The notes beneath the pieces are model-generated. The model had not been told where the DNA came from, searched no databases, and saw nothing but the letters and a program-made list of their open reading frames with translations. 64,000 bases of DNA from Myxococcus fulvus (GTDB lineage: Bacteria > Myxococcota > Myxococcia > Myxococcales > Myxococcaceae): contig NZ_FOIB01000002.1 of assembly GCF_900111765.1 (NCBI RefSeq), forward strand, positions 868,001-932,000. Direction: 5' to 3'. Below, piece by piece: positions 46,674-52,516 of the stretch (position 1 is the stretch's first letter; the number at the start of each line of letters is the position of its first letter). Made by a program: the position numbers and the translations under genes.

Positions 46674-46728
46674 ACCCCACCTCGTGGTGCTCGAGGGTGT
46701 GAGACGCCCCACAGCGGGAAAAAAGAGA

Positions 46729-46763
46729 GGAAGGACGGTGCTTTGACTTCGCCATGTCCTTCC
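46729..46763. terminator. Inverted repeat after the lipoprotein gene
   Basis: Arms GGAAGGAC and GTCCTTCC, 19 bases apart, start 55 bases after the stop. They precede the response-regulator gene at 46816. The loop contains TTGACT. It may end the kinase-receptor-lipoprotein transcript or be part of the next promoter; I cannot choose between these. Confidence 0.35.
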
Positions 46764-46815
46764 GTCAACATGCCTGGGTCTGCAGGGGGACAGCCCCACC
46801 TGAGGTCGTGATCCG

Positions 46816-47298
46816 ATGAAGGCCGGTACCCTTCCCTCCCCAGAGCCCGTTCCCAACCGCACCACGACGGACCCGGCGCGCCCTGGTGGAAGCCGGACCG
46901 CGACGGGCGGCGCGCCGCAGCGCGTGCTGCTGGTGGACGACAGCCGCTCCATCCGGACGCTGCTGAAGATCTACCTCATGGCGCGCAACTTCGAGTTCCT
47001 GGAGGCGGAGTCCGCCGAAGAGGGACTGAAGGTCGCCGAGGCGGAGGGCATCGACCTCATCCTCACCGACTTCCACATGGACGGGATGAACGGCGCCGAC
47101 TTCGCGGCGCAGATTCGCGCCAACGCCAACCCCCGGCTGGCGAAGGTCCCCATCCTGATGATGACGGGTGACCCGAACGTCGCCGAGGTGCGCGCGCTGG
47201 GTCAGAAGGCCGGCATCAGCGCCTTCGTCCGCAAGCCGGTGAGCTGCGCACAGCTCATGACGCTGGTGGACACCATCCTCCCGCTGCCGCGCAAGTAG
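46816..47298 (+). CDS. Single-domain response regulator
   Basis: A 160-residue protein: a disordered N-terminus of about 35 residues, then one receiver domain with Asp41/Asp42, phospho-acceptor Asp85 (LILTDFHMDGMNG), a conserved Thr (MMTG) and Lys in FVRKPVS. It has no output domain. It is closely similar to the CheY-like regulator at 22928, sharing the helix KIYLM and the KPVS ending. No kinase is adjacent other than the Ser/Thr kinase gene upstream, which is not a His kinase. Confidence 0.85.
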   Translation: MKAGTLPSPEPVPNRTTTDPARPGGSRTATGGAPQRVLLVDDSRSIRTLLKIYLMARNFEFLEAESAEEGLKVAEAEGIDLILTDFHMDGMNGADFAAQIRANANPRLAKVPILMMTGDPNVAEVRALGQKAGISAFVRKPVSCAQLMTLVDTILPLPRK

Positions 47299-47329
47299 CA
47301 CCCGGGGGCCCCAAGGCCCCGTCCTCACC

Positions 47330-47956
47330 TCACGCCGGGTTCCGGGCCGCCGCAGCGGCACGAGCCCGGCGTTTTCGCATTGCCTCGCCCACGCGCACCG
47401 CGAAGAGCAGCGCCAGCACCGCGCCGTAGATGAGCGGCTCGGTGACGTCCTGCTTCACCCGCCACACGAAGTGCACCACGCCCAGCACCGCGGCCACGTA
47501 GGCCAGCCGATGCAGGCGCTGCCAGCGCGGAAAGCCCAGCCTGCGCACCCAACGGTTCGTGGACGTGACGGCCAGCGGCACCAGCAACACCCACGCGGTG
47601 AAGCCCACGGTGATGAAGGGCCGCTTCACCACGTCCTCCCTCAGCGTCCGCCACGCCAGCCCCTGGTCCAGCACCGCGTAGGTGAACAGGTGCGCGCACG
47701 CGTACGTGAAGGCCAACAGCCCCAGCGTGCGACGCACCCGCGCGGGCCACGTCCACCGCGTGAGCAGCCGTACGGGCGTACACGCCAACGACGCCAGCAA
47801 CATCACCAGCGCGAGCAGCCCCGTCTGGTTGAGCGCCGCCTCGATGGCGTTGGGCCCCAGCTGTCCCAGCGGCCCCTGCACGGCGAGCAGCGCCAGGGGC
47901 AACAGTCCGCCCACGGTGAGCGCGGGGTTGAGCCACGGATGGGGAGACGAGGCCAT
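47330..47956 (-). CDS. msrQ: Protein-methionine-sulfoxide reductase heme-binding subunit MsrQ
   Basis: A 208-residue membrane protein with about six helices and the ferric-reductase-like fold. Histidines in FTYACAHLFTY and PRWQRLHRLAYVAAVLGVVHFVW sit in helices as expected for heme ligands. It passes electrons from the quinone pool to MsrP. The ATG at 47956 lies four bases after the msrP stop, the usual operon order. Confidence 0.88.
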   Translation of the reverse strand: MASSPHPWLNPALTVGGLLPLALLAVQGPLGQLGPNAIEAALNQTGLLALVMLLASLACTPVRLLTRWTWPARVRRTLGLLAFTYACAHLFTYAVLDQGLAWRTLREDVVKRPFITVGFTAWVLLVPLAVTSTNRWVRRLGFPRWQRLHRLAYVAAVLGVVHFVWRVKQDVTEPLIYGAVLALLFAVRVGEAMRKRRARAAAAARNPA

Positions 47957-47960
47957 GGCG

Positions 47961-48950
47961 TCAGAAGTTCTCGCGCAGGTCCATGCCCGCGTAGAGGTGC
48001 GCCACCTGCTCGCCGTAGCCGTTGAACGGCAGCGTGGGCCGACGCTCGAAGTCACCGATGCGCCGCTCGGTGGCCTGGCTCCAGCGCGGATGCGTCACGG
48101 CGGGGTTCACGTTGGCGTAGAAGCCGTACTCGTGCGGCGCCGCCATGTTCCAGGTGGTGAGCGGCATGGTGCGAGTCAGAGAGATGCGCACGATGGACTT
48201 GCCGCCCTTGAACCCATACTTCCACGGCACCACCAGCCGCAGCGGCGCGCCGTTCTGCGCGGGCAGCTGCTTGCCGTACAGGCCCATGGCCATGAACGTC
48301 AGCGGGTGCATCGCCTCGTCCAGCCGCAGTCCTTCCAGGTAGGGCCAGTCCAGCACCGGCCGTTGCTGCCCGGGCAGTTGCTCCGGGTCCATCAGCGTGG
48401 TGAAGGTCACGTAGCGCGCGTGGCTGGTGGGCTTCACCCGCGACAGCAGCGCGGCCAGCGGGAAGCCCAGCCACGGAATCACCATGGACCAGGCCTCCAC
48501 GCAGCGCATCCGGTAGACGCGCTCCTCCATCGTGAACCAGGACAGCAGCTGGTCGATGTCCACCGTCTTCGGCTCGTGCACCTCACCGTCCACGGTGACG
48601 GTCCACGGCCGGGGCTTCAGGTAGTGCGCGAGCCGCGCCGGGTCCTCCTTGTCCAGGCCCAGCTCGTAGAAGTTGTTGTACGTGGTGACGTCCTCGTACG
48701 GGGTGCGAGGCTCGTCCGTGTCGAACGCCCCCTTCGCCTTCACCACGGGCCCGGTGACGGCGCCCGCGTCCGGGACATACGCGTCCATGAAGCGGCGCTG
48801 CTTGCGGGTGAGCAGGTACAGGCCCCCCGCCACGGCGGCGGCCGTGCCCGTGAACAGGCCCGCGTTGCGCAGGAAGTCCCGGCGGCGCAGGTAGAGCCGT
48901 TCGGAGGTGATTTCGGAGCCGGGCGGCTCCACGGGCGGCTTGTCGCTCAT
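47961..48950 (-). CDS. msrP: Protein-methionine-sulfoxide reductase catalytic subunit MsrP (molybdoenzyme)
   Basis: A 329-residue periplasmic enzyme that repairs oxidised Met in envelope proteins. It has a Tat signal (LRRRDFLRN at 21-29, then a hydrophobic stretch), and the molybdenum ligand Cys150 in RMRCVEAWS. The length and the [13 protein letters not shown] block match YedY/MsrP. Gene order with msrQ supports the call. The upstream gene, crtW-like, ends six bases before its start, so all three probably form one operon. Confidence 0.92.
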
Positions 48951-48956
48951 GGCCCT

Positions 48957-49733
48957 TTATAACGGCCCAGCGTCCCCGGCCGTTACATCGCCCGCCCGCT
49001 CTGGCACGGCGCGAGCGTCCTTGACGCGCCACAGCCGCCACCAGGGCGTGCCGGGGGACTGGTGGTGCTCCCAGTGGTAGCCGAAGAAGTAGCAGGACAG
49101 CATGGCCCACGCGTGGTTGCGCGGCAGCGTGCGCGCGTGGTGCGGCGCCATGTCCGGCGTGTCCGGGCGCCGGTGCGGCAGGTAGGTGCCGAAGTAGAAG
49201 AGCTGCAACGTGCCCAGCACGGCCGGCACCACCCAGAACACCAGCACGCGGGGCTGGGACACGCCCAGGAAGACGAGGACGTTGAACTTGGCCGCCATCA
49301 CCCCCAGCTGCGGCAGCGTGGTGTAGCGGACCATGAACGTCCCCAGCCACGGCCAGAAGGACTGGGTGCGGGTGGAGAAGTCCGGGTCGTCGTCGCCCGT
49401 GGGGTGCTGGTGGTGCGCGTGGTGGTTCAACACCAGTCGCCGGTAGGACAGCCCCGCGAACAGGAAGCAGGCGAGCGTCCCCACCGCCTCGTTCACCCAG
49501 CCCTGCCGGGCCACCGTGCCGTGCATGGCGTCATGGCCGGTGATGAACAGCCCCGTGCACAGCCACGCCTGGAAGGCGACGTGCATCCACGTCAGGGGCG
49601 AGTCCAGGGGCAGCCACCCCGGGGACATCAGCATCCACGTCAGGTGCGCGCCCCACGCGCCGATGATGACGAGCGCGATGACGACGCCCCAGGGGCCGAG
49701 CGGTGGTGCGCGATGACGGGCGGAGGTCTCCAT
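48957..49733 (-). CDS. crtW: CrtW-type beta-carotene ketolase (membrane di-iron oxygenase)
   Basis: A 258-residue membrane protein with the three His boxes HDAMH (67-71), HHAHH (104-108) and HWEHH (about 223-227). Beyond the generic fatty-acid desaturase fold, the stretches GLFITGHDAMHG, FAGLSYRRL, DDDPDF, FGTYLPHR and the ending YHWEHHQSPGTPWWRL follow the bacterial CrtW pattern closely, and the length is typical. CrtW adds a 4-keto group to a beta-ionone ring. The ATG at 49733 is preferred; the frame to 49781 reads as Arg-rich. A desaturase acting on lipids remains possible. Confidence 0.8.
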   Translation of the reverse strand: METSARHRAPPLGPWGVVIALVIIGAWGAHLTWMLMSPGWLPLDSPLTWMHVAFQAWLCTGLFITGHDAMHGTVARQGWVNEAVGTLACFLFAGLSYRRLVLNHHAHHQHPTGDDDPDFSTRTQSFWPWLGTFMVRYTTLPQLGVMAAKFNVLVFLGVSQPRVLVFWVVPAVLGTLQLFYFGTYLPHRRPDTPDMAPHHARTLPRNHAWAMLSCYFFGYHWEHHQSPGTPWWRLWRVKDARAVPERAGDVTAGDAGPL

Positions 49734-49812
49734 CTCACCTGACTCATGGGGACGACCGCGCCGCCGCGCACGGGAAAGCACCCCGGCGCGGCGAGCGGGC
49801 CGTCGGCCGTGG

Positions 49813-51537
49813 CTACTTCCGCACGCCGGCGTCGGCCGCGGGGGCGGTGGCCTCGCGCACCAGCTCCTCCGCGGTGACGTAGCGCGGCTCGATGTCCACC
49901 GGCACGTCCTTGAGCCGCTCGAGCACCTTGCGCACCGGCGGACGAATCACTCCCATCTTCGCCAGGAGCGCCTCGGCCGCCTTGCGGTCGCCCTTGGCCT
50001 GAATCTCCATCAACTGCTTCGTCAGCGCGGTGACGGACTTCTTCATCGTCTCCGGCACGACGGAGAAGGTGCCGTCGGCGGCGACCTTCACGGCGCCGGA
50101 GTCCAGGAAGTAGTTGAGCTGCAGCGCCACGCCCTTGCCGTGCGCCTCGTCGATGCCGAAGCGGATGGAGCGGAACGCGGAGGCCAGGAACGTCGTGTAC
50201 ATGGTGCGGCCCATCGACTTGTCGATGACACCCGTGTCCATCAGCCGCTGCAGCGCCCACAGGCCGGAGATGTCCGCCTTGGCCTCCTCGAGCGCGCTGG
50301 AGGACACCTGGAGCGCCTGGCGCACCGTCGTCGCCTTGCCGCCCACGGTGATGTTGTGCGGCCCCAGCCCGTGCATCAGCTCGTGCATCAGGATGTGCGT
50401 GAAGAAGGCGTCGAAGGCCACGTCCTGCTGGTCCTTGGCGGACAGCGCCACCTTCGCGATGGGCACCAGCACGCGCTGGAACTTGGCCTCCTGCACGTTC
50501 TTGAGCATGACCCGCTTGGAGCCCATGGCCTCCGTGACGCGCTCGTCGTTGGGCAGGTTGTACGCGGCCGTCTGCACGCCGCGGTTGGCGTCACCGGCGG
50601 AGAACAGGCTGTTGACGACGCGGATGGGGGCCAGCGCGCCCAGCTTCGGGTTGCGCAGCTTCGCGTCGATGGGCAGGTGGTTCTCCAAATCCTGGAGGTG
50701 GTCGCTGAACTTGGAGAGCTTCTGCGTCTCCGCGTCGTCGCGCAGGCCGACGAAGGCCTCGAACGCGGCCTTGTAGTTGAACCAGCCGTCCTCGTAGACC
50801 TCGTAGGGCCCCACGGTGGGCTCGATGCTCGCGTCCAGCTTCATCCAGGCGACTTCGCTCGCGTAGTAGTCGTTCGAGCCGAACGCGTCCGCGCGCGACT
50901 CCAGGAACGCCTTGAGCGTGGGCTGCTTCGTCAGCTGCGCGGCCTCGCGGAACAGGCGCGCGGCCTCGGCCAGCTCACCCTGGTACTCGATGCTGTACGG
51001 CACGGAGACGAACTTGCCGTCGGTGCCCCGGCGGATGGTCGTGTAGAAGCCCGTGGCCTCCTTCTGCTGGGCCTCCGGCAGCGACTTCACCCACGCCTCC
51101 ACCTGCGCCTTGGTGGCGCCGGCCGGATAGAAGTTGCCGGCCTCCGGCTTCGCGGGCACGCCGGGCAGGAACGGCCGCCCCTCGTCGAGGCTGTTCCACG
51201 GGCCCTTGTCCAACACGAACGCGTGCAGGCGCGCGCGGCCCAAGGGCGAGTCGTCCCGCGTGAGCCCCAGCAGCACCGTCTCGCTGCCCGCCCAGCGCTG
51301 GCGCAGGAAGAGCGCGTCCATCAGCTGCGAGGCCTGGACGATGCGCGCGAGCGCCTGACGCTCGTTGGCGGGCAGGGCCTTCAAGTCCACCTTCAGCTCC
51401 ACCGGGGCGAAGCGCGCGGTGAGGCGCTGCAATTCGGCGGCGTCGGGCAGGGCGGCGGGGGCGGCGGCGTGCTCGGCGGCGAGGGCGGAGCCGGACAGCA
51501 TCGCCGCACCGAGCACGGACAGGAGGGTTCGGTTCAT
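49813..51537 (-). CDS. Exported M49-family (dipeptidyl-peptidase III-like) metallopeptidase
   Basis: A 574-residue exported protein (signal peptide LLSVLGAAMLSGSALA). The zinc site is HELMH at 385-389 (HELMHGLGPHN) with the downstream pair Glu417/Glu418 in EEAKAD, the second-ligand segment typical of M49-like enzymes. The classical M49 sequence is HEXXGH; the HEXXH form here belongs to a bacterial subgroup. The family removes N-terminal dipeptides. It starts 178 bases from the divergent CBM gene and ends 79 bases before the crtW-like start. Confidence 0.78.
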   Translation of the reverse strand: MNRTLLSVLGAAMLSGSALAAEHAAAPAALPDAAELQRLTARFAPVELKVDLKALPANERQALARIVQASQLMDALFLRQRWAGSETVLLGLTRDDSPLGRARLHAFVLDKGPWNSLDEGRPFLPGVPAKPEAGNFYPAGATKAQVEAWVKSLPEAQQKEATGFYTTIRRGTDGKFVSVPYSIEYQGELAEAARLFREAAQLTKQPTLKAFLESRADAFGSNDYYASEVAWMKLDASIEPTVGPYEVYEDGWFNYKAAFEAFVGLRDDAETQKLSKFSDHLQDLENHLPIDAKLRNPKLGALAPIRVVNSLFSAGDANRGVQTAAYNLPNDERVTEAMGSKRVMLKNVQEAKFQRVLVPIAKVALSAKDQQDVAFDAFFTHILMHELMHGLGPHNITVGGKATTVRQALQVSSSALEEAKADISGLWALQRLMDTGVIDKSMGRTMYTTFLASAFRSIRFGIDEAHGKGVALQLNYFLDSGAVKVAADGTFSVVPETMKKSVTALTKQLMEIQAKGDRKAAEALLAKMGVIRPPVRKVLERLKDVPVDIEPRYVTAEELVREATAPAADAGVRK

Positions 51538-51715
51538 GGCCCTTCCCTACCCCAACGTCGCGCCCCCTCCCAGCGCTCCCGTGCTCCTGTACGCATCGGA
51601 ACATTCCAGCCACGACGGTTTGGCGGCGCGCGTCGGAGCGGGCTGACAACATGCGCAAGCCTGGATTTCCCGGGCAACCCAGGTGCCCTTCAATCCGGGC
51701 ACGCGAGGACTTCTC

Positions 51716-52516
51716 ATGACGACGACTCGAACCGACCCCCTGTCCCGCCGGGGTGCGCTGCCGGGGCTGCTGGTGGCCCTGTGCGTGGGGCTGTTCTCCT
51801 CCTCCGCCCTGGCGGCGGACGAGGTGCGCCTGCTCAAGGCGGTGAGCACCGTGAGCAGCCGCTATGGGCAGACGTGGCAGGACGTCACCTACCTCCTGGT
51901 GGTGAAGAACCTGGCCTACGAGAAGCAGGTCGCCATCCACGACAAGCAGCCGGACGGGACGTGGATTGATCTGGCGGCCAGCTACGCGGGCGACGCGGGC
52001 ACGGGCCACGAGCTGTGGAAGGTGACCCGGCAGTACCAGAGCTGGGGCACGTCCCCGCAGCCGACGCGCGATTTGGAGTTCGTGGCGAAGTACACGGTGA
52101 ATGGCCAGACGTACTGGGACAACAACGGCGGGGCCAACTACCAGCTGGTGCGCACCAACGGGCCGCTGCTCCCCCGCGCCAACGTGCTGGTGGGCAGCAG
52201 CTACTGGCAGCCCACGGGTGAGGTGGACATCGGCATCGACGTGAAGAACCTCGCCTACACCAAGAGCGTCACGGTGGTGTATTCGACGGACAACTGGGCC
52301 ACGTCCCACGAGGTCGCCGCGGCCTTCGTCCCCGGCTACTCGGTGGGCTACGCGTACATCTCCAGCCCCAACCCGTACGGCGTGGAGCGCTGGCAGGCGC
52401 GCATCCCGGCCGGGTCCGGCACGCCGCAGTACTACATCCGGTACGAGGTGAACGGACAGACGTACTGGGACAACAACTTCGGCTACAACTACCCGCCCAT
52501 CTACCCTCCCCTCTAG
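51716..52516 (+). CDS. Secreted protein with two CBM21-like carbohydrate-binding modules
   Basis: A 266-residue exported protein with signal peptide LLVALCVGLFSSSALA. It has two related modules. Each ends in the CBM21 signature: YTVNGQTYWDNNGGANY in module one and YEVNGQTYWDNNFGYNY in module two, the motif that binds glycogen or starch and glycogen-associated proteins. No catalytic domain is present. The ATG at 51716 has a GAGGA site. It may bind storage or matrix polysaccharide outside the cell; this is inference. Confidence 0.8.
   Translation: MTTTRTDPLSRRGALPGLLVALCVGLFSSSALAADEVRLLKAVSTVSSRYGQTWQDVTYLLVVKNLAYEKQVAIHDKQPDGTWIDLAASYAGDAGTGHELWKVTRQYQSWGTSPQPTRDLEFVAKYTVNGQTYWDNNGGANYQLVRTNGPLLPRANVLVGSSYWQPTGEVDIGIDVKNLAYTKSVTVVYSTDNWATSHEVAAAFVPGYSVGYAYISSPNPYGVERWQARIPAGSGTPQYYIRYEVNGQTYWDNNFGYNYPPIYPPL

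Follow-up and report, generated by a model that had tools for sequence, protein, structure and literature searches.

A gene on the minus strand of the 64,000-nucleotide stretch of Myxococcus fulvus DNA analyzed here (the window) is predicted to encode a CrtW-type carotenoid beta-ring 4-ketolase and, judged from sequence, very probably (at roughly 0.82) accounts for the keto step of the myxobacterial red-carotenoid pathway, to which no gene is attached in the accessible text. An earlier reading of the letters (the sequence-only reading) had put the gene forward as a candidate for this missing 4-ketolase. The proposal was strengthened by the placement of the protein in the CrtW phylogeny, the presence of CrtYc/Yd in 64 of 66 genomes carrying the gene and one clean co-loss, by the gene being the sole CrtW match in its genome, with none in the carotenoid cluster and background CrtO scores in several carriers, and by its relationship to Bacteroidota CrtW proteins, among them one assigned to a monocyclic 4-ketocarotenoid.

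Organization of the crtW-msrPQ locus

The crtW-like open reading frame begins with an ATG at 49733 and its stop codon ends at 48957 (minus strand). The features of the locus, in window coordinates, were as follows:

49813..51537, minus strand, M49-family peptidase-like gene of 574 aa (Peptidase_M49, 51.3 bits), the conserved upstream neighbour of crtW
49734..49812, minus strand, spacer of 79 nt between the M49-family gene and crtW, with a GC-rich stem-loop (single-sequence folding, alignment)
48957..49733, minus strand, crtW-like gene, predicted carotenoid beta-ring 4-ketolase of 258 aa (CrtW profile, His residues, trees, predicted model)
47961..48950, minus strand, msrP, catalytic subunit of periplasmic methionine sulfoxide reductase, 329 aa (NCBIfam MsrP, Oxidored_molyb)
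47330..47956, minus strand, msrQ, heme-binding membrane partner of MsrP, 208 aa (NCBIfam MsrQ)
46816..47298, plus strand, convergent response-regulator gene beside msrQ (Response_reg, 73.5 bits)

The crtW-like gene, msrP and msrQ follow one another head to tail, separated by 6 and 4 nt; these calls agreed with the order, strand and gaps of the sequence-only reading, in which the extension of the same-strand block upstream to the M49-family gene was absent. Both partners of the reductase scored above their NCBIfam cut-offs (478 bits against 207 for MsrP, 181 bits against 130 for MsrQ), and MsrP also matched Pfam Oxidored_molyb (107.8 bits). The Tat profile gave 13.5 bits on MsrP, against a cut-off of 16.7, and the protein contains the stretch RRRDFL, a candidate motif of the Tat-signal type. 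The convergent response-regulator gene probably lies outside the crtW-msrPQ unit; it adjoins msrQ also in loci L048, L060, L132, L143, L150 and L154.

The 79-nt spacer ahead of crtW folded as a strong GC-rich stem-loop (z -3.1), and five of six spacers folded singly gave z values of -3.1 to -4.9. Since RNAalifold returned only three pairs on the spacers, of which 27 were aligned, the hairpin is described here from the single-sequence folds. It may be a terminator lacking a T run, a leader element or a processing site. The hairpin leaves little room for a promoter just before crtW, and transcription may therefore start within or upstream of the M49-family gene; a sigma-70 scan of 46700-52000, which did not extend to CarQ-type sites, found no promoter. 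As a repeat, the hairpin gave no match in its own genome with a strict pattern, but this pattern would miss the window's own copy as well, while a looser pattern gave one match in the window against 0.75 expected by chance; both outcomes carry little information. A TTTTCCC-like loop recurs in the M49-crtW spacers of relatives.

Identity and phylogeny of the CrtW-like protein

The sole Pfam match of the protein was FA_desaturase (PF00487, 84.8 bits), which excludes membership of the CrtO-type (FAD/CrtI-type) family. Among NCBIfam families the CrtW profile scored 220 bits across residues 15-240, followed by CrtR at 32 bits, and the DesA/DesB profiles gave 19-24 bits, in line with the suggestion of the sequence-only reading that the CrtW pattern extends beyond the His boxes. 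The score of 220 bits is under the curated equivalog cut-off of 350 bits for CrtW. Three plasmid-borne CrtW homologues, two of which adjoin a gene annotated as sterol desaturase family that is read as CrtZ-like, also miss the cut-off (207, 241 and 210 bits), so that it does not decide CrtW membership, and the sub-cut-off score was dropped as an argument against it. The genome of the window is rich in membrane diiron enzymes, with 19 FA_desaturase matches at 18 places (two are halves of the crtW-like gene, which is included in the count). In the genome-wide profile search there was a single real CrtW match, the second-best reaching 26 bits.

The three histidine boxes of a membrane diiron site were present (HDAMH, HHAHH and HWEHH), and nine histidines (H67, H71, H104, H107, H108, H187, H220, H223 and H224) were invariant in 34 CrtW sequences. 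The motif FGT[YFW]xPH is common to this protein and other CrtW. The third box reads YHWEHH here and mostly YHHEHH in the alphaproteobacterial CrtW rows; tryptophan occupies the same position in Poribacteria and other CrtW rows too, and the changed residue lies outside the ligand positions of HxxHH. The predicted model (pLDDT 90) resembles a membrane diiron oxygenase, with fold matches to AlkB (Z 13.8-13.9) and SCD1 (Z 9.9), although two chains of chloroplast FtsHi motor complexes ranked higher (Z 17.5 and 16.6) and such a fold alone shows no function. A Foldseek search with the model gave no match at E <0.001, and a sequence search of solved structures gave one chance-level match (E 0.3).

For the phylogeny, the best 80 of at least 552 relatives were taken from a scan of named genomes. 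In a tree of 124 rows, the Myxococcaceae sequences formed one clade of 35 rows (support 100/98) inside a CrtW group of 40 rows (100/99), which also held CrtW of Roseivirga, Pelobium, Cytophagales, Bacteroidales and Ignavibacteria. The nearest named relatives, among the best 80 of at least 552, were thus CrtW of Bacteroidota and Ignavibacteriota, and a 36-row tree agreed on the CrtW placement. The deep root of the CrtW/desaturase tree is unsure because the desaturase branches are very long. The tree that the sequence-only reading had proposed as a check, CrtW against lipid desaturases, did not refute the ketolase assignment: in the 36-row set, the best tree joining the myxobacterial sequences to eight desaturases of the same genome (a set confined to that genome, exclusive of reference lipid desaturases from elsewhere) was rejected by the AU test (p-AU 0.0043). 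On the tree and this test against the eight, a lipid desaturase identity was rejected. Together, the profile, His boxes, predicted fold and phylogeny identify the protein as a predicted CrtW-type carotenoid 4-ketolase. Roseivirga crtW adjoins genes of the CrtI, CrtB and LytB types, and at L148:1165-1668 a gene for a sigma-70 (ECF-type) factor lies directly ahead of crtI, crtB, lytB and crtW.

Distribution and linkage in the class

A search of 134 genomes of the class (completeness at least 85%; CrtW carriers defined by a match >100 bits, CrtYc/Yd by a score over the cut-off) identified crtW in 66, MsrP in 95 and CrtYc/Yd in 71. Every one of the 27 genomes in the window's genus group was a carrier. 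CrtYc/Yd was present in 64 of the 66 carriers, and crtW in 64 of the 71 genomes with CrtYc/Yd, the other seven being G030, G076, G079, G080, G110, G111 and G124. The two carriers without CrtYc/Yd, G006 and G008, fall in a different family; they have phytoene synthase, and their CrtW is diverged (36 and 43% identity). This co-occurrence is to be read as largely shared ancestry, because only one clean co-loss was found; relatedness among the genomes likewise means that a Fisher p for it cannot be taken at face value.

In 63 of the 66 carriers the gene lies directly ahead of msrP and in the same orientation, so the arrangement is not attributable to chance. A 64th linked carrier (G109) has msrP after crtW, cut off by a contig end, and the 64 linked genomes span nine genus groups. 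Of 30 loci examined, 27 had an M49 match upstream of crtW, and the other three, all of genus g7, had none. Thirty-one of the 95 msrP genomes had no crtW. In named genomes, msrPQ was within the available flank (<5 kb for some) at four of 80 CrtW loci (the best 80 of at least 552), namely those of Myxococcus dinghuensis, Myxococcus sp. CA023, Corallococcus carmarthensis and one Comamonas-labelled record. The last, Comamonas sp. KCTC 72670 (L154 4953-7351), holds the whole block of M49-family gene, crtW, msrPQ and response regulator at 77-86% protein identity, and is probably mislabelled or contaminated.

Loss of crtW together with the pathway

Genome G071, which nests with carriers G070 and G072 in a tree of M49, MsrP and MsrQ (99/98), had no match for phytoene synthase or CrtYc/Yd and nothing >24 bits for CrtW, and still has the M49, msrP, msrQ and response-regulator genes in unchanged order. 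Its M49-msrP spacer is 88 nt long. The left part resembled the M49-crtW spacer of G072 (score 60 against a best of 40 in 500 shuffles) and the right part the crtW-msrP spacer of G070 (57 against 31), while the other four comparisons gave 44 against 40, 43 against 40, 35 against 33 and 39 against 29. The junction looks like a clean removal of crtW along with loss of the pathway, though the assembly is split into 410 contigs; it is one clean co-loss, not many. A piece of the stem-loop of the M49-crtW spacer seems to have been left as a scar. In G075, M49 also adjoins msrPQ without crtW, and there was no match for phytoene synthase. This genome may show the state before insertion, since its long branch attaches outside the clade of carriers.

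The keto step of the carotenoid pathway and alternative enzymes

The end product of carotenoid synthesis in M. xanthus bears a ring keto group, and the accessible text of PMC8156234, which reports this, names no ketolase; that of PMC9304148 on M. xanthus carotenogenesis likewise names none. More widely, the literature records and open-access passages covered assigned no ketolase to myxobacteria, which bears out, for the text covered, the earlier statement that the myxobacterial ketolase is not firmly assigned. The genome of the window has a carB-type cluster with crtE, crtIa, crtB, crtD, a glycosyltransferase gene, CrtYc/Yd and two CarA/CarH-type regulators. This cluster is on contig C1 and held no CrtW match; the crtW-like gene is on contig C2.

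Enzymes of the CrtW family carry out O2- and electron-dependent oxidation of C4 of the beta ring. Myxobacton has the ring and chain pattern of deoxyflexixanthin, plus a sugar on the 1' oxygen. In the proposed mechanism, CrtYc/CrtYd would make a single beta ring on a monocyclic carotenoid, and the CrtW-type enzyme, a membrane non-heme diiron protein, would use O2 and electrons in oxidations at ring C4 to give a ketone, the product being myxobacton ester, the monocyclic carotenoid of Myxococcaceae, with its 4-keto group. We infer both the ketolase activity and its substrate. Probably a single insertion, in an ancestor of the carotenogenic Myxococcaceae, put the gene between the M49-family gene and msrP, where it has remained.

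That the protein is some other membrane diiron oxygenase, either a carotenoid ring hydroxylase or a lipid desaturase/hydroxylase, would fit the PF00487 match that it has in common with desaturases, the score below the NCBIfam CrtW cut-off and the YHWEHH box. We regard this as improbable, however, given the non-ligand nature of the altered position and the tryptophan of Poribacteria and other CrtW, the distance between the CrtW score and those of CrtR and DesA/DesB, the AU rejection of a grouping with desaturases of the same genome, and the loss of crtW along with the carotenoid pathway in G071. A shade less probable again is that the keto group is made by a CrtO-type enzyme or an unassigned CrtI paralogue, with the CrtW-like protein acting otherwise. 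CrtO-like matches reached 135 bits in the window's genome and 270 bits in G098, a fourth carrier of its genus group, but were at background (43-46 bits) in the single-contig carriers G088, G091 and G106 of the same group and 50-54 bits in G034 and G064, and none of 18 and then 34 genomes reached the CrtO cut-off. The CrtO-like score marks no carotenoid ketolase, because G071, G012 and G074, which have no phytoene synthase, give comparable or higher scores (125, 277 and 241 bits), and CrtO was rejected as the general myxobacterial ketolase on these grounds. Outside the carotenoid cluster, the window's genome encodes two CrtI paralogues (G000:C7:353109-354584 and G000:C4:870480-871958) that were conserved in all five genomes searched; one is presumably crtIb, leaving one without an assigned role as a minor rival.

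The sister genomes G076 and G110 (100/99) have CrtYc/Yd and msrPQ, have no CrtW, and encode CrtO-like proteins with 77% mutual identity (G076:C33:14933-16468, 330 bits; G110:C165:6-1526, 333 bits). These genes lie about 3.2 kb and 1.6 kb downstream of msrQ, respectively, on the same strand with other genes between. Their position would favour a CrtO-type ketolase, but as the genomes are sisters it represents one event, and matches of 230-320 bits were also found elsewhere; the proximity to msrPQ is a weak second link and was not counted as evidence. The CrtO-like protein of this pair is a possible non-homologous substitute for CrtW.

Linkage to msrPQ and stress responses

The linkage of crtW to msrPQ is real and old. 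In the accessible parts of the respective papers, E. coli msrPQ is described in an operon with hiuH and as induced by HOCl and copper (PMC9302797), singlet oxygen as a light signal in M. xanthus and copper as an activator of carQRS and crtIb in the dark (PMC8156234), MsrA and MsrB (not MsrP) of Rhodobacter as raised under singlet oxygen (PMC7074977), and a singlet-oxygen-inducible sigma factor of Bradyrhizobium as controlling peptide methionine sulfoxide reductases (PMC3420878). These reports make a stress logic common to carotenogenesis and methionine sulfoxide reductases plausible. Counting against it are the conservation of the entire neighbourhood, the survival of msrPQ on its own and the lack of any promoter hit in the sigma-70 scan. 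Light/dark RNA-seq, in the part of PMC11832031 available, found carotenoid genes unaffected by light in liquid cultures of M. xanthus, and only crtC and carA changed among those of M. macrosporus; the crtW-msrPQ locus goes unmentioned there.

That crtW, while a true ketolase gene, owes its place before msrPQ to inherited synteny without functional coupling is an evenly balanced proposition, and one compatible with the preferred explanation. The linkage may be of this kind because the upstream M49-family gene is conserved too (27 of 30 loci), and the response regulator is found downstream in six loci; msrPQ also persists without crtW in G071, 31 of 95 msrP genomes are without crtW, and 76 of the 80 named CrtW loci (the best 80 of at least 552) have no msrPQ in the available flank. 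On the other hand, the msrP linkage was kept in 64 of 66 carriers and nine genera though genus g7 lost M49 from this position, the intergenic gaps are short, singlet oxygen and copper signal carotenogenesis in M. xanthus, and E. coli msrPQ, in the text available, responds to copper and HOCl by induction. The sequence-only reading had suggested an operon that joins a pigment-modifying enzyme to envelope repair under light or oxidative stress, of which the conserved linkage is supported here. A functional module, with the ketolase within a methionine-repair operon and made together with it under singlet-oxygen (light) or copper stress, is accordingly put forward only tentatively, as possible but on balance doubtful; in such a module, pigment ketolation and envelope methionine repair would plausibly be produced together under these stresses. 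Co-transcription, regulation and coupling to MsrPQ are what we infer here. The boldest form, in which the heme protein MsrQ also helps supply electrons to the diiron ketolase, is very unlikely.

Comparison with known systems

The protein is like CrtW of Paracoccus, Brevundimonas and cyanobacteria in family profile, the three His boxes, FGTxxPH and tree placement, but differs in identity (36-43%) and in the YHWEHH third box; the gene adjoins msrPQ rather than crtZ or a carotenoid cluster, and its expected substrate has one beta ring. Another parallel is found in Algoriphagus, which also has a CrtYcd-type monocyclase pathway, the nearest named relatives among the best 80 being CrtW of Bacteroidota and Ignavibacteriota. 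There, however, crtW lies inside the carotenoid cluster and here on another contig, and the Algoriphagus CrtW is absent from our tree. In the accessible text, homology together with a previous cluster study was the basis for assigning Algoriphagus crtW with crtYcd to flexixanthin (PMC10784355), and an Algoriphagus strain makes deoxyflexixanthin, a monocyclic 4-ketone (PMC3111180). Relative to the E. coli hiuH-msrPQ operon, MsrP and MsrQ are alike in exceeding their family cut-offs, but crtW replaces hiuH ahead of them. Compared with the carB/carC loci of M. xanthus, the genome has a carB-type cluster as well, while the proposed ketolase gene is on the other contig (C2, against C1 for the cluster).

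Implications

In Myxococcus, carotenogenesis induced by light has been studied closely as a photosensory system (CarH, CarF, CarQ), and its keto step appears without a gene in the available text of reviews. A location outside the carotenoid cluster would explain why the ketolase gene has been overlooked, and one conserved, unlinked candidate gene makes the step testable. Should the linkage to msrPQ prove functional, pigment synthesis would be connected with the repair of envelope proteins oxidized by the same singlet oxygen.
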